Positions 5,615 through 64,000 of a stretch of 64,000 nucleotides of DNA are shown here, in pieces. A program made the position numbers and the translations under genes. Each line of letters starts with the position of its first letter. Position 1 is the stretch's first letter. Below the pieces are notes generated by a model. The model saw only the letters and a program-made list of their open reading frames with translations. It searched no databases and was not told the origin of the DNA. Source of the stretch: Hyperoplus lanceolatus (Eukaryota > Chordata > Actinopteri > Uranoscopiformes > Ammodytidae). Where the stretch lies: NCBI GenBank assembly GCA_026929865.2, contig CM049396.1, positions 23,951,001 to 24,015,000 of the forward strand, written 5' to 3'.

Positions 5615-8486
5615 CTTATGTTTATGTTTATGTTTATTTTATTCCACATACAAAATAGATTTAAAAAAACATGTAGTAAAAAAAATTAAAAATACATGTG
5701 TGGGTGTGGCAGAAACCTGTACAGGCTTATATAGAGCCACACCCAAAATACATTTATATATTAATATTAGCAGATCAGCACACAAGCGTACACACACACA
5801 AAAAAAACAAAAAAAAACATATGTATGAATGAGAAAAAAAACCAATGCAAAACAATCAAAGAAATTAAGAACAAAACCCAAGACAATAATATGTATATAT
5901 ATTTAAAAAAAAATCAGTTTAAATCAGTTAGAACAAATCAAGATGTAGTAATACAAATTATTGTGTTTAAACCAAGCAAGCGGACAATCATGATAAATAT
6001 AAAAATCAAATTCCTGTTTTTAAACTAATTGCTTTTGATAGCATGGAATTCTGCAGTCTCTTTTTGAATATGGTCAATGTTATAGAAGAATCAAGTACAA
6101 TGGTACAATGATTATGAAATTTTGAGTTTGAAGAAAAATAACATCCAAAAGTACAAGGTAAATCAGTCAACTTATATCTCACCTTAAAAACAAAAGTGCA
6201 TATTTGGAGAATATTTATATCATAAATAGACAATAACTTTAATTTATAGAAAAGTGGTGCACTTGGTACCAGAGGTTTTGAGAAGGTCGCTAATCTAGCA
6301 AACCTTTTCTGCAGTAGCATAATTTTATTTAGGTATGATGAAAATGTACTCGCCCAAACAATATTACAGTATGTTAAATATGGATAGATCAGACTGTAGT
6401 ATAATGTTAATAAACATGACTTATGAACAAAAACTCTTATTTTTCGAAGGATCCCAAGGGATTTAGTTACCTTATTACAGACAAGACCAACCTGTTCTCT
6501 CCATGAGAGTTTATCATCAATAATAACACCTAAAAAACATGTTGATGAGACTTTAATTATTTCTTCATCATTTATATAAAGTTTGATTTGGTCATTGTCA
6601 TGAATCTTTTTACCAGCAAACAACATGAAATTGGACTTTTTGACATTTAAAGATAACTTGTTTGTTTGGAACCAGCTTGAGAACAGGATAAGATTATGAT
6701 TTAGCTCCTCTATTAGACTTTTTAGGACTCTATGAGAGAGAACAAGGCTGGTGTCATCTGCAAAAAGCAAAGGGAATATGGATTTCGAAACCTGCGCAAT
6801 GTCATTTATATAAATGAGAAATAATAAAGGTCCTAATATGGATCCTTGAGGTACCCCATGTTTTATGTAGTTTCTTGTGGAATCATGACCGTTAATATGA
6901 ACATACTGTTTTCTGTTTTTAACATAGTTATAAAGCCACTTATGGACAGTGCCAGAAAGTCCATATTTAAATAATTTTGAAAGCAAAATATCGTGATTAA
7001 CCGTATCAAAAGCCTTCGAAAGATCTAAAAATATACCTATTGCAAACTCATTTCTATCTAAAGCTGTATGTATCCTATCAATTAACTCTAAATGGGCCAT
7101 ATAAGTTGCATGATTCTTTCGGAATCCGTATTGATGGTTATAGAGAACATTGTGTTTATTAAAGTGCTCAAGGATCCTTTTATATACCAGTTTCTCCAAA
7201 ATTTTCGAAAAATATGGCAAGAGTGAAATTGGACGGTAATTTGTAAGGGATTCTGGATCCCCTGCTTTGAATAAAGGTATAACCTTAGCGATTTTCAAGT
7301 CAGAAGGTATAATGCCAGTTTTCATTGATTGTGCAAACGAATGTTAATGGATTAACAATAGATGAACTGACTTCCTTTATTAGGGATGAACAAATACAAT
7401 CATGACCTGGAGCTGAATCTTTGAGTTTGGATATAATATCAGTTACCTCCTTAACATCAGGAAGATTAAAATGATTAAATTCTGGAAAAGAGCCCTTAAT
7501 ATAATCTAATGGATCAGCCTTTGTATCAACTATTGTTTTGGAAAGAGATGTACCAATGCTTGAGAAGAAATCATTGAACTTGCAAGCTATATCAAATGGA
7601 TCAGTTAAAGAAGAATTTCCATCTTTAAAAGATGAAGGATAATTTAAGGAGGCCTTTTCCTTTTGAAGGAGTTGTTTAATAATCTTCCATGTATCTTTAA
7701 TATTACTTTCAGATTTAGCAAACTGATCAATATAGTACCTTTTCTTGACAGCTCTAAGGAGATGATTGTATTTGTTTTTGTATGATTTATAAGTCGCCAA
7801 ATTTAAAGGAGTTGGTGATGAAATATATTTTCTATAGAGTTTGTTCTTGATAATGGAGGACTTTTTCAGACCAGAAGAAAACCAGGGATTATTCAATTCT
7901 TTCCTAGTATCAACAGACCGAGTAACTAAGGGAAAACATTTACTAAAAGCTGAGTTAAATATTTCATTAAATGTTTGATAAGCGGAGTTTGCATTGCTCT
8001 CCATATAAACCCTTTCAAAGGAAACCTTCTCTAACATTACTTTAAATTTGGATTTATTTTTTGAATTGAAATTTCTGTAAGTTGTCGAAGACTTGTCCTT
8101 TACCTTTAGACCGTCTAAAACAACAATTTGAAATACTGGACAATGATCAGATATTTCAGTAAATAAAATTCCCGTTTTTGTTTCATAATTGAGAGAATTG
8201 AATAGTATATTATCAATTAGTGTAGCAGATTTGTCCGTTATTCTGGTAGGTTTATTAATAGTGGGATAAAAGTAACTTGAATACAATTGGTTCAAAAAAT
8301 CTTCTGTTGGAGAGTGTGTTTCACTTTTAAAAAGGTTAATATTGAAATCACCAAGAATATGACACATTTTCTTTTCCTTGTTGATGAGCTCCAGGCTGTT
8401 TGTGAGGCTTTTATTGAAACAATTAATATCAGTGTCAGGTGGTCGGTAAACCCCACCTATGATCACATTTCCCACATTTTCTTTTC
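5615..8486 (-). mobile_element. 5'-truncated APE-type non-LTR retrotransposon (LINE), CR1/L2/jockey-like
   Basis: A minus-strand LINE of about 2.9 kb. Reading 5' to 3' it contains an endonuclease (missing its N-terminus), a reverse transcriptase with C-terminal region, a roughly 370-bp 3' UTR, and a tail of AATAAA/CATAAA-like tandem units at about 5615-5645. The 3' UTR has a 9-bp inverted repeat, GGGTGTGGC at 5702-5710 and GCCACACCC at 5736-5744. The 5' end stops inside the endonuclease where the sequence turns into (TCTA)n at about 8490, which fits 5' truncation during target-primed reverse transcription. A simple-repeat rather than poly-A tail suggests the CR1/L2 side of the jockey superfamily. 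The clade is a guess; the LINE identity is firm. Confidence 0.9.
6006..7325 (-). pseudogene. LINE reverse transcriptase (3' part of broken ORF2)
   Basis: A 439-codon frame holding an almost intact RT that would copy LINE RNA at the nicked target. Motifs in order: NYRPISLLP (residue 29 on), motif A FLDLSKAFD with catalytic Asp (99-107), motif B GVPQGSILGPLLF (157-169), motif C FADD (188-191), motif D around NKLSLNVKKS (222-231), motif E FLGVIIDDKLSW (264-275), then a typical LINE C-terminal region to the stop at 6006. It overlaps the endonuclease frame by 26 bp in another register. One small indel near 7325, in a short AATCAATG context, is enough to explain the break. The rest has no internal stop, which suggests a fairly young insertion. 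Confidence 0.9.
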
Positions 8487-8491
8487 TATCC

Positions 8492-8493
<2 letters not shown>
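7300..8493 (-). pseudogene. LINE endonuclease region plus start of RT (5' part of broken ORF2)
   Basis: A 397-codon frame encoding most of an AP-endonuclease-like domain that would nick target DNA during retrotransposition. Visible motifs are GGVYRPPD (about residues 13-20), LGDFNIN with the catalytic-type Asp/Asn (47-53), SATLIDNIL (89-97) and SDHCPVF with the catalytic-type His (115-121). The C-terminal end has the GHDCICSSLIKE linker that precedes the RT. The N-terminal catalytic Glu region is missing because the element is truncated at the microsatellite. The annotated Met comes from repeat-adjacent sequence and is not a true start. The frame ends at 7300 after shifting out of register near 7325, where the RT frame begins. 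It cannot give a functional protein. Confidence 0.88.
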
Positions 8494-21803: not shown

Positions 21804-21995
21804 GAGGAGCGGGGTATAAGTTAGGAGGAGGTGGGTGAGACAATTAGGTGATATATTATGAAGACCCTTAAATGTTATCACTCATCATACAGTTTATTTA
21901 TTATATATTTCAATCGCATGATCGCAATATTGGCAACTATAATAGTAATCACACATGTTGACCTTTATCGGGCAGAAGTTTCGCCATGCCTAACA

Positions 21996-22450
21996 ACTAA
22001 CAAGAAAAAGCACTGTGCAGCACTTTTTATTGATCTTTCAAAGGCCTTTGATACTGTTGACCACCATTTGCTTTTACAGAGGCTGCATGACATTGGCTTT
22101 GATCAGTCTGCATGTAGCTGGTTTAGGGATTATCTCTCTGATAGACAGCAGTCAGTTAAACTGGGAAGATACCAGTCTGAGTTTTTAACTGTTACAAATG
22201 GTGTCCCACAGGGCTCAATTTTAGGTCCAGTTCTTTTCACAAATTATATAAATAACATTGTTTCATCGCTAAAAAACTGTCACGCCCATCTATACGCTGA
22301 TGACACAGTACTGTATTGCATTTCCGATTCGGTGCACCAATCTATTGAGAACCTACAAAGCTCTTTTAACACTCTGCAGGACTGTCTAGTGGACCTCAGG
22401 CTTGTTCTTAATACAGACAAAACCAAATATATGTGTTTCTCCAGAGCAAA
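21996..22450 (+). pseudogene. LINE reverse transcriptase, motifs A-D (frameshifted)
   Basis: In-frame part of a longer open stretch starting at 21858; the first ~45 codons of that stretch are flanking sequence. It encodes ALFIDLSKAFDTVDH (motif A, catalytic Asp), NGVPQGSILGPVLF (motif B), LYADDTVLY (motif C, YADD) and LVLNTDKTKYMCF (motif D). After motif B the usual FxLYINDI block reads FTNYINNI, a sign of decay. The frame goes out of register at about 22440-22450 and continues in another frame. Confidence 0.85.
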
Positions 22451-23140
22451 ACTACACATTTTAATGATCTTATTATTCACACAAATAATGGATCTCATAT
22501 TGAAAGAGTCACTGAATATAAATATCTCGGCATCTGGATAGATGAAAAACTCTCTTTTACATTTCACATAAAAAATCTTGTCTGTCGTCTGCGACAAAAG
22601 ATTGGATATTTTTATAGGAACAAAGCCACCTTCCCGTTGTTCAGTAGGAAAAGGATTATTGAGGCAGTTTTTATGTCTGTCCTTGATTACGGTGATGTGG
22701 TCTACCGGCATGCATCACATTCATGTCTTAAACTCCTAGACTCAGTTTTTCACTCTGCTTTAAGGTTCATCACAGGAGATGCTTATGACACACACCATTG
22801 TCTCTTATATGAAAAGGTTGGGTGGTCCTCCCTTAAAGAGAGACGTGACGCACATTGGCATATTTTTATTTACAAAGCCTTGACCGGGAAGCTTCCTCGT
22901 TATTTAACAGAAATGCTGGTTGTTTCAGATGGGCTTTATCAGACCCGCTCCACTGACATGCTTATGCTTTATGTCCCACAAGCCCGGTCTGAGCTGGGAA
23001 AGACAGCTTTTAGCTTCAGTGCACCTGACTCCTGGAACAACTTACAGCTAAAAATTAAACTAAATACATTCATATCCTTTGGCCAATTTAAACAGACTAT
23101 CTTGGATCTGCCAAACTCTACCTGTAACTGTTTTAATTAG
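22433..23140 (+). pseudogene. LINE reverse transcriptase C-terminal part (frameshifted continuation)
   Basis: A 235-codon frame continuing the RT: EYKYLGIWIDEKLSFTFHIK (motif E region), then the thumb/C-terminal region with VLDYGDVVYRHA, LHxALRFITGDAYDTHHCLLY-like and APDSWNNLQ segments, to a stop at 23140. The first few codons (to about 22442) overlap the preceding frame and are not the true reading. Without the 5' part it is a dead copy. Confidence 0.85.
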
Positions 23141-50971: not shown

Positions 50972-51481
50972 TCAGGTATGTTGCTCATTCTTGCAGCTTG
51001 GGTTGATCAGGTCCTCTTCCCTCCGGAATTGAACCAGATCCTCCTCCGTTCTGATTTGCACAATTTTAGCTTCTTCGGGTGTAGCTCCATTCGATTTGAT
51101 GAAGATTCTTCCATCTCTTGTCCATGTTTGTTGGACCCGTCCACATTTTTTTAACCCTCTGGCTTGGTAGGCCAAATTAGCATTTCTCTTGGTTATGTTT
51201 TCACTCATTCCAATTTGTTCGCCTTTAAGCTTCTTGCCTTGACTGAGCAAATTTATCTTATGCTTTCTACTCACAAATTTCAGAATAACAGCACGCTTTT
51301 TGGCGAATTTTCCCTTCGGGAGAAGAAAACAAGACTCCACGTTCTCCAGATCCAGACTAATGCCTTTGCTTCTCAGGAACCTTTCAACCTGGTTTTCCAC
51401 CGACACATTCCTTGTATCGCCCTCTTCTTCTCCATTCACGGCAGCTGCATACGACCTAGGTTTAATATCCATACCAGTCAT
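50972..51481 (-). pseudogene. LINE ORF1 C-terminal part
   Basis: About 169 codons from the ATG at 51481 to the TGA at 50972. It contains the segments PRSYAAAVNGEEEGDTRNVS, VENQVERFLRSKGISLDLEN, KRAVILKFVSRKHKINLLSQ, then GKKLKGEQIGMSENITKRNA and QQTWTRDGRIFIKSNGATPE. These follow the LKFxSRKxKxxLLxxGKKLKG...ENxTKxNAxLAxxAR...TWTxxGxIFIKxNG pattern of ORF1-type RNA-binding C-terminal domains in animal LINEs. The last codons overlap ATG AGC of a short second frame (about 41 codons, 50986-50861) that ends early and looks decayed. The exact LINE clade is not assigned. Confidence 0.7.
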
Positions 51482-51483
51482 TA

Positions 51484-51825
51484 TCACATCTCTGTTTTTT
51501 TGTTTTTTGCTTGTTGATCTTGGTCATCAATTTTATCTCCAAGCTCTTTCAAGAGCTGATCTTTCTTCACATTAACAGCTTGAAGTTCCTTCAATTCGAT
51601 CATCAGTGGCCTCAGACCAGCAGCAATTTTTTCTTCAATTTTTGCATCAAAACGCCCAATCCATTCGTCCATAATCCCAGCTAGCTCAGCTTTCAGCAGT
51701 GCTCGCTCCGTCTCCCTCTCACTTTTCATTTCTCTCATCAAGTCTGCCAACTGTTTTTTCATTTCTTCCGCATAATCTTTGTCTTCCTCCTTCCCCTTAT
51801 CAATGTTTTTTCCTTTTTTGGACAT
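51484..51825 (-). pseudogene. LINE ORF1 N-terminal part (coiled coil)
   Basis: The frame starts at the ATG at 51825 (MSKKGKNIDKGKEEDKDYAE); the slightly longer open frame to 51831 uses a non-ATG codon. It is a highly charged Lys/Glu-rich segment followed by a predicted coiled coil (Glu/Leu/Lys heptads around LLKAELAGIMDEWIGRFDAK and LRPLMIELKELQAVNVKKDQ). ORF1 proteins bind LINE RNA and trimerise through such coils. The frame stops (TGA) at 51484, immediately after an A-rich KNKK segment, while the C-terminal half continues in another frame. A homopolymer slip in AAAAAACAAAAAAAC probably broke a single ORF1. Confidence 0.7.
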
Positions 51826-53869
51826 CTCCAAAGATTTTCAGAGATTTTTAAGGCTGTGAATCTGAGTTCTCCGCTGCTCACGGTAAATAGCTCTTAACCC
51901 TCGGCAAGCCGGAAGTGACAGTATGTGCAAAACAATGTTATAATTATATTGGTTTTAATTAATATAATTTTGGATAAACCTAATTTATTATAATTGTATT
52001 TGAAGGGTAATTTGGCAAATAATTAATGTATTATTGTTTTTGTTCAAGGGTTATTCATTTAATTTTTAAAAACCTTATTTATTGTTTCATTTTAAAGGAT
52101 GTTTTTTAAAATATCTTTATTTGAACATTGCTGTTTTATATTTTGTTCGTGTCTATTTTGTACCGTTTGTGTTACTCTGTATATTTCAAAAATAAATCCG
52201 GAGTAATTCAGTAGGCCTACTTGTACTCTTTAGTACTTGAGTAGTCTTTTCACTGCATACTTTTTTACTCTTACTTGAGTAATTATTTGTATGAGTACTT
52301 TTACTTCTACTTGAGTAATTGTAATCTTAAAGTAACTTACTTTTACTTGAGTACATTTTTTGGCTACTCTGCCCACCTCTGGTTCTAGTTCACATCTCCG
52401 GAAATGACTGTAACGTGTTTGAACGTTATAACTAAGTGCATTAGGTCAGAACTATTGCAGGAGTGTCTAATCCACTGCACCGGAGACCGGAGTCTCAGTT
52501 GTCTCACAGAGAAAGATGTAGGGAAGAGGAAGGGGAATTGCAAGACAGTACATTTGCCAATATAACAACTTACTCCTCCCTAAGTCTTGCTCCCTGTAAA
52601 AAAAGACATCAGACTGTCTGAATCATGATACAGCCTGAAGGTCACCTTTGTGTTTTTTTGAAGTCATCTCCTCGTTGTGTTATGCCAAAGTTGGAGTCAA
52701 TCTCTCTGCCTAGTGTTGTCTCTAGGGTAAACCACCCACTGCAGTACAGTACAGCTGTGAGAACAATGACTGTTGAGGGCAGTGATCTACAACCGGAGGG
52801 CTTTGTAGAAAAGGTTGTTGACTAGGGATCCACCAATCACACATTAACTCCCTTGACGTAGACACCGATACCAATGCAGGTACAGCAGATAAGTGCGTCC
52901 CGTTTTTGAAATGGAATCTTACAGATCAGATATCAGATCAGATTATTTAACAACAATGTTTGATATCATCCTTCCTCGCTCCATGAATGACTGATACAGT
53001 GAACTCTGTCCTATCTAGCCAACAATATGTTACATGTACAGCTGTGCACTTTGGGATGGAGTGTAATGCTGACTTCATGGCTTACCATCTATACTGACAT
53101 CCCAACGAAGCTATTGTGTCTGAATGGTACTAAATCCCTGTAGCCTGGTTCAACATGGGTAAGATGTACTGGAAAGAGGAAGAGTTGTGCTGTCCAAGCA
53201 TCAGATATGGCTTGGATCAGTGTTCACCTTTTTGCACAACAAATGTTGTCCTCATCTCTATCATGATCGTGTGATTTTATTCCTTCCAGTGTTTGGTTGA
53301 AGTTGATGGGTGTTTTATGGGTTTGGGTTCCGAGCTCTCTACAGTATGCTGCTCAATTGACCTCCACTTTATTTAACTGACCTGAAATTATTTGCAGGAT
53401 TCCTACACAATTTATTGGATGCAGTAAGGCATACATACATTAAAAGAACATGATAATATTTCTAAAACCTTTAATAACATAGTGTGCACACATAAATATT
53501 GTAGGATACACCAGAGGTTATTTGGAATGAATGAATTGAAAGTGTAACAAACACTGTGTTATCCCTATTATCAGTACCAAATTGCATAGGTGTTACTCCA
53601 AAACTTCTTGGAAATGATTTAGCAAATTAAAGTTCAAACTGTACAGTGAAGCCCATATCCGGACAAATTAGTAATAGATCATACCACAAGCTAACTGGAA
53701 TACAATTAACGAATATGGGCAGTTGCCTTGACTAGCTTCAACAGCCCATTGCTGTTTTACATTATTGGCTGCCTGGTACGGCTCAAATCTTAGAAAGCAG
53801 AGCTTCATTTTAGTTACAGTAGAGGTGTCATGGTTGAACAACTGCACAGTGAAATCAATAGGCTCTGCT

Positions 53870-59912: not shown

Positions 59913-61428
59913 CAGGCCCGGTTCTAGACAGTTAGATTAGGGTGGGCCTGTAGAAATTTTAGGTGGGCACACTGGGCAGAGAGACCGAAGATGCTCTGCG
60001 CGCAAGCATAATTTTTTTGCCCTTGTAAGATCTCTGCGTCTGATTTTTGGCACATTTACTGTGAATTTTGTAGAACACAATATGCAAATAAACTTTGAGT
60101 GTTGCTGTGTGGGAGATTTGATTCTGGCATGTTTTTTTTCCAAAAGGTTTATGAATAACATATAATATACATTATATAAAACATAATGTATATATTTTTT
60201 ATCGCAGTATTAACTGTAGGCAGCCTGAGCTGATTGAAGAGAAAGCTTTGGGACTGGTCAACCTGGATGGTGGTAGAGCTATATACTATACACACTATAT
60301 ACAGTGGCGTTTCTAGGTGTAAAAAACAGGTGGGGCTCACACCAAAGAGGGAGGTCTGGGGGTCCCCCCCCAGAAAAAATTTGAGCTTCAAAGACACTGT
60401 TTCTCGCATTCTGGCGATTTTATAAACACAAAATCAGTTGTTCACATCTTGGCAAGACGTGGATAGTTGGCACAGCCTGACAGCCAATGAAATTGCAGCA
60501 CTATCCCCTGCTGACTTACGGCCAAATCACTCAAAGTTTCCAGGTTCAAATCCCAGTTCAGACAAAAGATGAAGTTTAGAACTTCAGAGTAAATAACTTA
60601 AATTCATTGTGTGGACATAAAACACAAAAGCAAAACTACACTGGACATTTAAATGCAGAATCACATCAAGGCTATTAAACAATAATATTAAAAACCTTTG
60701 ATAATATGTTTAACATGTTTAAAATGCAACTCATTTTTAACTACTAATGCAATTAATAATCAGTAAACATTATTTACTTGACACAGACTAAAATGGATCA
60801 AATGTGTTGTTTATTAAAAAATCTTCACAACAATGACAGCTAGATTTCAACAAACAAATAGTCACACAATAAAAATACTTTTAATTAACTGCATCGAATC
60901 CTTCGACACATTATATGAAATACTCGCTGATACAATATTAAGGGGCTATAAAATAAAGAATCCACATCAGGTTGAAATAAAGTAGCAGCACAGGAGTAAT
61001 GATTCATTACATTAAAAAGACAATTTTCAAATATAAAATCTTCTGTGTAAAGATTTAGCTTGTCCCAATACATGATGTCCTACTACATCCTGTAGTCATT
61101 TTCAGTGTGCAAACCAGCAGCTTTATGGAGGTTCTGACCTACATCCTATACACAGCGGAAGTCACATCACATGGACTGAGCCTCCCAGTGAAAACCAACA
61201 GCAATTCGAGGGATATACAGCAACAGAGTCAAGTCCAAGCCATGATGTTATAATGATATATGAAAGTATAAGTACTTTCCAATTGTTGCATACTGCATGC
61301 ACACTATGTACTCTTTATGGTCAGCTGCAGTATGTACAATAGAAAAAAAATAAAAATGCATGGACACAGGGATGGAGCCATCCAGAGAGCCAGGTATTCT
61401 CTACTGTTGTGAGCAGCACGGTCTGACA

Positions 61429-62702
61429 TCACAGCCACAGGAAGGAAGTGGATGAGGGGGACAGCCGGGACAGCAGGCGGCAGACCTAGTCGGACAGGAA
61501 TCAAGACACAGCAAATGTTTACGATTTTGTATGTGACTTCATATCATGTCTTTGGCAAACAAATCAGAAACATGTAAATACTTACTTTGAGCTCTCTTTG
61601 CTTATGGTGACAGCAGAGGTTCAGTTGTTGCTGCAGACGGCTCAGTAGAACAGACGTTCTGGAAAGAATATTAAACATTTCATTATTTTTAACTGGAACA
61701 TAGAGAAAAAATATTAATTGACACTTTACATAGTTTATTGTCAAGCTAACATGCTTAAAAGGAAGTTTCTTCTATGTGCTCTGACTCTGTGAAGTGCTCT
61801 TTGTTTAGAACCTACATCACACCGTTATATACTGCTCAGTTGTGGTCTAACTGTGAAAAAAGAGTATGCAGAGGCTCAAGGTAGCATAATATGTTTTACG
61901 TGTCCCCTCTGAAAAGCTGCTATAAGGTTTAGACGGCATTGGTGCAATAGCCTGTTTATCCTAAAAGTCAATATGCAATTTTTATGTATTTCCTTACTGT
62001 ATGATGTGTTATATGGACCTGTGTCAGCAATAAAGCTGTATCATTATAAAGACAGTACATCAATATTTTTTAAATGTGAATACAGGTTAAATATCACACA
62101 CCTGGAGCTGTGATGACCGTCTGTGTGGACAGGAGAGTTTCTGTTTCCAGCAATAGAAACATCAGCTTGTGAGGAAGAGAGACAGTGTTTTAATATGTTA
62201 CAGGCATTATTATGTATGTATATAAAAATAAATGAGGAAGGTTTAAATCTCCGCCCAGGCACTTTTACTGTCTGCATATTATCACTATATCTGCCTAGAT
62301 CTTAATTACATGTCTGCCTTTCTTTCTCCCCCATGACTTAAGTAATACCTACTGTAGGCCTATGTGTACATTGTCTTAACCTTTTGGGCATCTCAGATAT
62401 CAGTAATGCTATTGTAGTTTTTTTTTAACTTGTGTTGAGATTGTCATCTTAAATTTGGAGTTAATTTACAGCAAAATGTCTTCATTTATTTTACCTCTCA
62501 ACGTTGGCTTAACATATTATAAAAACGTAAATGGTGTAGTAAAATAAAGCATGCATGACAGGTAGGCCAACGAGCGACTGTTATCTCGTTCACGTAAACG
62601 GGACAAAGTCTGACATCATCGACAGAAAGTATCACTGCACATTCGTACATCGTCCATTGTTTAATTCACCGAAGTATTACTTTAAAATGTAGATAACTCA
62701 CC
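61429..62702 (-). other. Candidate spliced transcription unit inside hAT element D
   Basis: On the minus strand: exon 1 ends AAAAG at 62702 before GTGAGT; exon 2 62165-62102 follows a pyrimidine-rich CTCTCTTCCTCACAAG and precedes GTGTGT; exon 3 61658-61586 follows ATATTCTTTCCAG and precedes GTAAGT; exon 4 starts at 61485 after GATTCCTGTCCGACTAG and reaches TGA at 61429. Phases 1, 2 and 0 are compatible, giving one open frame across all four (VDFAVWRDFTDK, then ADVSIAGNRNSPVHTDGHHS, then TSVLLSRLQQQLNLCCHH, then VCRLLSRL). No in-frame ATG was found; an in-frame TAG lies about 28 codons upstream of the exon 1 donor. An AATAAA is at 60810-60815. It is either a captured host gene fragment or the element's own transcript. 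The product is unrecognised. Confidence 0.3.
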
Positions 62703-63545
62703 TTTTATCAGTAAAGTCTCTCCACACAGCGAAATCCACACGGTAGCCCTGAGCGACGTTCACTCGTCCAGCATAGACCCAACAGCATCTAGCTGACTAT
62801 TGCTGCTCTCATCTCATCCTCTCAGAAAGGTTTTTAAAATCCTCGACAAAATACCTTCTCCACCGTCCACCGAACAGCAAACAAGGGAAGCAGAAGAGTG
62901 CCTTCTTATGATCGATAGCCGTTAGCCTTCTTTAGCATAGCTACCACTCCACATTATAGGTTATTGTCCGGTAGATAGTGGGCAGTGCACCAAATGGTTT
63001 TACTAGCCTACCAATTTCTCTTCTAGACTAAGGGTCTCAAACCTGTGCTCCAAAAATGATCTACTTCATTCATGTTGTCGACTCGCTTTCGTTTGTGTGC
63101 CTCTGACATCTTTGTGTAGTGTTGTGTTAGCTACGTTATCCTGGCTTCTCCGTCCTTCTCTTCTTCGGGCTACCACTGGACTTTTCGCGGCACTACAGCG
63201 TCACAGTAGTGGAACGAACCATGATGTCCATATATGTCTTTTCCAGTGCCGGAGGGGCAGCGCCCGTTGGGCTAAAATAATCTCCGTCCACTATAACAGA
63301 GAAACACTACGAGCACGCGCATTTCGCAGTTGTTCACGTACATACACATTGCATTGCGCAGGAGGGGCAAAAGGCGAACGAGCCCCTTAGCCCTTCGGCC
63401 CAAATCTGACTGGCTCACACGGCTGCCGTAGTCTGACTGCAGAGACCATGGACATGGCACAGGCCATGGCAGAGACACAAATCAGACAAATGCAATCTGA
63501 AGAAGCAAGCTAGGGTCGGCAAAAATGAACTAAAAGCGCCAAACT

Positions 63546-63561
63546 TTTTTTTTGATATATA

Positions 63562-63608
<47 letters not shown>

Positions 63609-63610
63609 CT
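63546..63610. repeat. T-run / (AT)n / T-run low-complexity tract
   Basis: TTTTTTTTTGATATATATAT then a long AT run, then about 18 T, near the right end of hAT element D. Confidence 0.9.
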
Positions 63611-64000
63611 TGTGAGAGTAGGTGGGGCTTCGCCCCACGTGCCCCTAATGACCAGTCGCCACTGACTATATAGATATATAGTCTTTCCACTATTGGCTCC
63701 GATGTCCAGGTTGGTGAAAATATTAGACAGCCGAGGTCACGACCCTGCTAGGGGTGTCCGGGGGTATGCCTCCCCGGGAGATTTTTTTTTTTACCTTTTT
63801 AAAGTGAAATGCATGAATCTGGTGCACTTTGAGAGGAAAATTAAGAGGCTAAATCTGAGGAATTTTGTGTGAACAAATAATTTGGAGACACTGGGTCAGA
63901 TGAATTAGAAGCTATTGAAATATATATCCATAGAAATATAAATTTGAAATAAAATATTACGCAGGGTCCTCTGGGTTGGGCTTGGTGCTCTCTTTCTTTT

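Follow-up and report, generated by a model that had tools for sequence, protein, structure and literature searches.

Structure of the element and its copies

The window analysed here, a stretch of 64,000 nucleotides of Hyperoplus lanceolatus DNA, lies at C2:23951001-24015000 of an assembly of 806.7 Mb. A first-pass annotation of the window, made from the sequence, had described a splice-ready series of exons at 61429-62702 inside a hAT transposon. The setting was confirmed: the stretch sits within an element with CAGTGGCG ends and an 8-bp target-site duplication (TSD; Table 1). The ends at 60302 and 63664 were fixed and common to the aligned copies. Both were present in eight further young copies (L009-L015, L017), and L016 covered positions 60302 to 63593. 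The CAGTGGCG sequences formed inverted repeats at the ends. A matching TSD flanked 11 of the 14 copies inspected, with 10 different sequences; L018 and L021 had none, and L025 stopped short of the right end. The copies L010 and L014 on C3 had common flanks and represent one insertion that was duplicated.

Table 1. Features of the composite element and its flanks, in window positions.
Feature	Position	Strand	Remarks
Left 8-bp target-site duplication	60294..60301		ACTATATA
Composite non-autonomous hAT element (Pack-hAT), 3363 bp	60302..63664	- (captured gene sense)	ends CAGTGGCG...CGCCACTG
hAT scaffold, left part	60302..60448		common to copies with another interior; homology ends at 60448
Captured segment (filler Y), partial copy of a DUF6729 gene	60449..62751	-	end of exon 1, introns, exons 2-3, start of exon 4, 3' end
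AATAAA polyadenylation-like signal	60810..60815	-	also in the hAT-free copy on C9
Beginning of exon 4 (the gene's main DUF6729 exon)	61396..61485	-	homology with L044 ends at 61396
Exon 3	61586..61658	-	2 nt less than the L044 exon; part of the gene's coding sequence
Exon 2, 5'-truncated	62102..62165	-	DUF6729 gene frame LMFLLLETETLLSTQTVITAP; donor GTGTGT; substitute acceptor CACAAG
3' end of exon 1 of the captured gene (probably untranslated)	62702..62751	-	donor GTGAGT at 62701-62696
Broken N-terminal part of a ZMYM1/TTF-type hAT transposase	62707..63109	-	ATG at 63109; frameshifts and stops; tblastn 1e-17
hAT scaffold, right part	62752..63664	-	common to L034-L037; homology from 62752
Right 8-bp target-site duplication	63665..63672		ACTATATA

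The right part of the element contained the remains of a transposase. Its read-through, padded with X, had one protein match among 32 candidates, a ZMYM1-like protein of Merluccius polli (7.9e-23), and this protein found the window again by tblastn. A Pfam search with the pieces of the remnant gave no match. We take the TTF motif to be that of this transposase type. Below approximately 62752 the alignment probably runs on by chance into captured DNA. The window copy is non-autonomous: its transposase has stops and frameshifts, and no further transposase part was found. Short terminal inverted repeats (TIRs), an 8-bp TSD and a relative with hAT transposase domains place the element in the hAT superfamily.

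The DNA of 61429-62702 was repeated in the genome, with at least 69 matches (best 40 of 114 candidates). Thirty-one places were grouped from 33 matches, at least 18 of them with a match to the right scaffold nearby (best 40 of 68 candidates); the 18 leave out the C17 copies L020, L021 and L024, which do carry scaffold. All copy counts are lower bounds, as they come from the best 40 candidates per search. Six of 19 hAT-borne copies (L019, L020, L021, L022, L024, L027) broke off within a few bases of each other, at the equivalents of 62766-62778. The breaks were inserts in L019, L020, L021 and L024 (one common to L020 and L024) and deletion-like short gaps in L022 and L027, so that the site is possibly fragile or favoured. 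The large inserts of L019, L020 and L024 were considered as lost transposase and dropped, as they look like nested insertions.

Other repeats were seen nearby. Just outside the element, 63681-64000 belongs to a different dispersed repeat, present in L028 at 82-84% and, by eye, downstream of a gene copy on C9 (copy B, see below). Long open reading frames (ORFs) elsewhere in the window (6006-8493, minus strand; 21852-23140, plus strand; 50972-51837, minus strand) resemble, by eye, pieces of LINE reverse transcriptase or LINE ORF1.

The interior is foreign to the hAT scaffold

Between 60448 and 62752 lies a non-TE interior of approximately 2303 bp, within the range of 100-5000 bp used for Pack-TIRs. 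In a genome search, 24 places spanned the left junction (89-100%), 14 matched the scaffold only and two the filler only (best 40 of 262 candidates). The match ended at query base 69, which is window position 60448, in 13 of the 14 scaffold-only places and at base 75 in the other. One of the two filler-only places, C4:35631882 (L027), was a disrupted hAT-borne copy. For the right junction the counts cover loci examined individually. All 19 hAT-borne loci crossed 62752, 13 of them up to the query end and six only to 62769-62778; five hAT-free loci ended at 62733-62756, and four loci with another filler started at 62752. By eye, scaffold and source-like DNA overlapped by three bases (ATC) at the left join, and a few bases at the right join belonged to neither side.

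The four loci with another filler (L034-L037) had the right part of the element from 62752 and its left end to 60448, around a different interior. L036 and L037 matched the left end to 60448 over 147 bp and L034, at its edge, over 57 bp; no such match was seen in L035. The second interior (filler X) had the same breakpoints, spanned 1192-3247 of L036 (approximately 2.05 kb), had equivalents in L034, L035 and L037 and contained no ORF longer than 108 aa. A fuller relative of the scaffold, without the captured middle, was found on C14 (L038, 823-4690). Its transposase coding region was free of introns and consisted of two open frames, 476 and 266 aa long, with one in-frame stop between them; the domains DUF4371 (2.1e-15) and Dimer_Tnp_hAT (4.1e-9) were detected. 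L038 is thus a near-autonomous ZMYM1/TTF-type hAT, and it may be related to the source of transposition in trans. The interior is foreign to the scaffold: this fuller relative lacks it, and in other copies of the scaffold another sequence occupies the place between the same breakpoints. The same chimeric structure recurred with distinct TSDs, as in multicopy Pack-TIRs, and the element is a multicopy Pack-hAT with at least 24 junction-spanning places.

Source of the captured segment

Five copies of the segment were free of hAT sequence, on C4 (14.42 Mb and 5.59 Mb), C9, C12 and C15. No scaffold match was found in the stretches fetched for them (C15 without its 3' part; C4:5.59M with 5594201-5597499 excluded). 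Two of the five, C4:5.59M and C9, lay within tandem arrays of DUF6729 genes, and an adjoining DUF6729 gene was shown for these two only, not for C4:14.4M, C12 and C15. The arrays beside the partial copies extended over C4:5583300-5600400 and C9:6187500-6206100. On C4, the hAT-free partial copy directly adjoined one of the DUF6729 gene copies, downstream of its 3' end. On C9, the partial copy was followed by a second copy (copy B) that enters the DUF6729 frame (3.4e-13) with one in-frame stop. The frame of copy B had 142 protein matches from 2229 candidates; PF20499 was present in 112 of the 120 listed, and the organisms among these listed DUF6729 proteins were all fish.

The first-pass annotation had looked to a homologous host gene and to copies with the same junctions, and both were found. 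In the gene copy L044 (C4), exons 2-4 join into one open frame with DUF6729, and the donor and acceptor positions are those of the window (exon 2 donor, exon 3 acceptor and donor, exon 4 acceptor). The exon 1 donor was seen only in the hAT-free partial copies. Farther upstream, L044 has an exon interrupted by an in-frame stop, and no homologue of exon 1 was found in it; L044 therefore serves as an open-frame reference for exons 2-4 only. The DUF6729 domain was present in L044 and in copy B of C9 and absent from the window.

Introns aligned between the composite and the hAT-free copies, indicating capture at the DNA level with introns retained. By segment, the hAT-free copies were about 76-92% identical to the window; in the copy at C4:5.59M, the 180 bp of exon 1 and the early part of intron 1 reached 92% and the sequence further on 76-85%. 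None was a near-identical donor, and the exact parental locus is therefore not fixed. At the protein level, the long exon 2 of L018 and of C4:14.4M resembled the N-termini of fish DUF6729 proteins (E 2e-4 to 2e-3), and the exons of the window itself had no protein match at E 0.01. The probable origin from a DUF6729 gene draws on DNA homology and junctions, accompanied by a weak protein match.

These observations bear out the Pack-type capture by a non-autonomous hAT that the first-pass annotation had put forward. The scaffold recurs around another interior, the segment occurs without hAT sequence, and the exon 2-4 junctions reappear in a gene copy. We consider it very probable that 2.3 kb of genomic DNA, from a partial DUF6729 gene copy that was frameshifted beforehand, took the place of a hAT interior, and that the product was then multiplied. 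A non-autonomous ZMYM1/TTF-type hAT would have lost its interior and gained the end of exon 1, introns, exons 2-3, the start of exon 4 and a 3' end with AATAAA. A break within the element, mended by template switching or gap repair, may have led to the capture, and the composite would then have spread in trans with the transposase of a related autonomous hAT. The TSDs indicate that the composite moved as a unit after capture. For multicopy Pack-TIRs, a survey of animal genomes likewise proposes a template switch in the course of repair and subsequent transposition in trans (PMC8277862).

Another reading is that the segment was itself mobile, as a non-autonomous relative of a DUF6729-bearing transposon that became attached to the hAT or inserted into it, giving a chimera of two transposons. 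In its favour, there are hAT-free partial copies on C4, C9, C12 and C15, and DUF6729 proteins are many in several fish species. Yet coding loci for DUF6729 were few in this genome, with 12 matches in six places (one fish query protein; 44 candidates, all scored), and the two arrays contain spliced gene copies. Moreover, the C12 and C15 copies have more than 1 kb of common flank, which points to segmental duplication, and no TSD was visible by eye at the filler boundaries. We regard this reading as unlikely. The three hAT-free copies at C4:14.4M, C12 and C15 may have spread by segmental duplication or by mobility of their own.

Splice signals and state of the captured exons

The splice signals reported for the stretch were borne out. 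Among 88 GT sites on the minus strand of 62800-61400, the donors GTGAGT (after 62702), GTGTGT (62102) and GTAAGT (61586) ranked 1, 2 and 3; the acceptors upstream of 62165, 61658 and 61485 ranked 7, 3 and 6 among 84 AG sites. Sites were scored with a table of splice-site weights. Three donors and three acceptors of this quality could be chained in order in two ways in the real stretch. Such a chain was found in none of 2000 dinucleotide shuffles and in none of 170 overlapping 1.4-kb tiles, read on both strands, from the part of the window that surrounds the element; the plus strand of 62800-61400 had none either. Shuffles and tiles, together with the identical exon 2-4 junctions of L044, leave practically nothing of the idea that splice-like signals arose here by chance.

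The four-exon series required revision. Exons 2-4 correspond to exons of the gene, and the reported exon 1 consists mostly of the hAT transposase remnant plus approximately 50 bp of captured gene. The acceptor at 62165 exists where it was placed, and its CACAAG looks like a substitute. Older copies have approximately 170 more bases before exon 2 and a CAG acceptor behind a long pyrimidine tract; this acceptor was kept in the older hAT-borne copies L018, L022 and L028 and in the C4:14.4M copy, and was lost with the approximately 170 bases in the young group. The rough scores of the two acceptors were little apart (2.6 in L018, 2.1 in the window). Judged from these alignments, the acceptor at 62165 is probably not the original one. 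The donors were kept wherever the sequence was present (20/20, 19/19 and 20/20 of 20 loci, including the hAT-free L026), and the acceptor AG was lost in 2/20 loci for exon 3 and in 1/20 for exon 4. Within the captured 3' end, a sequence that resembles a tRNA B-box (GGTTCAAATCCC, 60543-60554, plus strand) may be a relic of a SINE or tRNA.

The gene frame of the captured exons is broken. In the window, exon 2 reads LMFLLLETETLLSTQTVITAP and exon 3 runs into a stop, because exon 3 is 2 nt shorter than that of L044. Among the copies whose exon 3 start pattern was found, the same shortening occurred in 20 of 21; exon 3 of L032 was one base longer than in those 20. As the 2-nt-short state is common to the hAT-free copies, the source was already broken before capture. 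A frame through exons 3-4 (containing KRAQSLPPAVPAVPL) was considered as the coding frame from gaps of 3 and 9 nt and dropped, as L044 gave the true frame.

The first-pass annotation had joined the exons into an open frame of roughly 90 codons. Such a frame does exist across the three junctions; it has 83 codons, contains no methionine and is closed by a TGA on its upstream side. It also differs from the frame used by the homologous DUF6729 gene. In Pfam, its best match was 0.0083, under the cut-off of that family. A variant peptide (exons 2-4 in the same frame, another frame of exon 1 and a shorter exon 2) had a best PDB match of 0.75, with nothing relevant, and matched none of 30 candidates in a protein database. 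Other frames of the exon block had no match in Pfam or PDB, and Rfam gave none at its gathering threshold.

Could the composite nevertheless encode a new small protein in this 83-codon frame? The frame is open over three junctions, exon 2 has the lowest divergence of the exons, and transposon DNA can turn coding, as described for exon 4 of dm-W (PMC9250109). Across 16 older loci, the substitutions per site were 0.026, 0.060 and 0.039 for exons 2-4 and 0.046, 0.042 and 0.030 for introns 1-3, with no consistent difference between exons and introns, exon 2 being lower and exon 3 higher. Against a new protein stand the missing ATG, the upstream TGA, the departure from the gene frame and the frameshift shared by the copies. 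In addition, minor bases were spread evenly over codon positions in the 16 older loci (exon 2: 7/7/6; exon 3: 22/25/16; exon 4: 23/26/16), and no relative was found in Pfam for the frame or in the PDB and protein searches with the N-terminally different peptide. A new protein is thus very improbable, and the coding value implied for the frame was not upheld. From the alignments there is no clear sign of selection on a protein, in a test limited by few substitutions.

The exons might also belong to the hAT's own transposase transcript or to a non-coding RNA of the element, as was suggested alternatively, and they do lie on the same strand, downstream of the remnant of the transposase start codon. 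However, the transposase of L038 occupies its two intron-free frames, with the single stop between them and without the exon block, which contradicts the idea of transposase exons, and the four examined copies of the scaffold have a different interior; we give this explanation hardly any weight. An early idea that the exon block lies downstream of a lost transposase exon was likewise dropped.

Discussion

The element belongs to a known kind, the animal Pack-TIRs with hAT ends, and is unusual in length, exon content and copy number compared with those described in the animal survey. In 100 animal genomes, 208 of 370 Pack-TIRs had hAT ends and eight Pack-TIRs were in zebrafish; only four reported cases were multicopy, the median captured length was 224 bp and exons were enriched (PMC8277862). 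With sources at 76-92% identity, the fish element would not pass the survey's filter for young captures (source at least 90% identical, 80-120% of the length), which makes the capture older; the filter is not the definition of a Pack-TIR.

The closest described system is Pack-hAT-N8_XT of western clawed frogs, which also has a hAT scaffold whose two ends belong to a single element, a genic non-TE interior, several copies with distinct TSDs and a source without flanking TE (PMC8277862). The frog element carries a 291-bp 5' UTR fragment in three places (PMC8277862), whereas the fish element carries approximately 2.3 kb in at least 24. Compared with the multicopy Pack-TIRs as presented there (PMC8277862), the fish interior has introns and parts of four exons and comes from a pseudogene-like copy of a gene that forms tandem arrays; the scaffold has a second interior too. 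In Ssk-FB4 of Drosophila melanogaster, a nearly whole intron-containing gene lies in a TIR element and was multiplied by transposition, with template switching and transposition proposed as the mechanism (PMC8277862). By the same account, Ssk-FB4 is transcribed, with proteomic support and signs of positive selection (PMC8277862), whereas the gene frame of the fish element is broken.

Plant Pack-TYPE elements are likewise reported to be non-autonomous DNA transposons with gene fragments; here the host is an animal and the element family another (PMC8903248). Exon 4 of dm-W in Xenopus, derived from hAT-10, is a further vertebrate case of a hAT and exons, in which a host gene gained a transposon exon (PMC9250109), whereas in the fish a transposon gained gene exons. 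A literature search, with most subscription journals outside its coverage, found no paper on a multicopy Pack-hAT of fish and, in full text, none on DUF6729. Gene captures multiplied to this extent seem to be uncommon among animals.

As the captured part starts within exon 1, a promoter would need to be hAT-derived. Any RNA would be expected to start in the hAT 5' region and to be chimeric, spliced and probably non-coding. A further possibility, to which we give a low probability, is that the scaffold is a recurrent capture vehicle, with at least two interiors of approximately 2 kb at 60448/62752, and that transcription of its DUF6729 version, starting in the hAT 5' region, yields spliced chimeric RNA at dozens of loci. 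If so, the chimeric RNA could act on the DUF6729 arrays as a decoy or as a source of small RNAs.

Because one genome contains the source family, scaffold relatives around a different interior and a near-autonomous hAT, the order of capture, trimming and amplification can be read from the sequence. Multicopy gene-capturing DNA transposons are very rare, with four cases in the survey (PMC8277862), and the fish case adds at least 24 places and a multi-exon insert. It also draws attention to the DUF6729 genes, and offers a natural test of whether captured splice sites give rise to exonisation in vertebrates.
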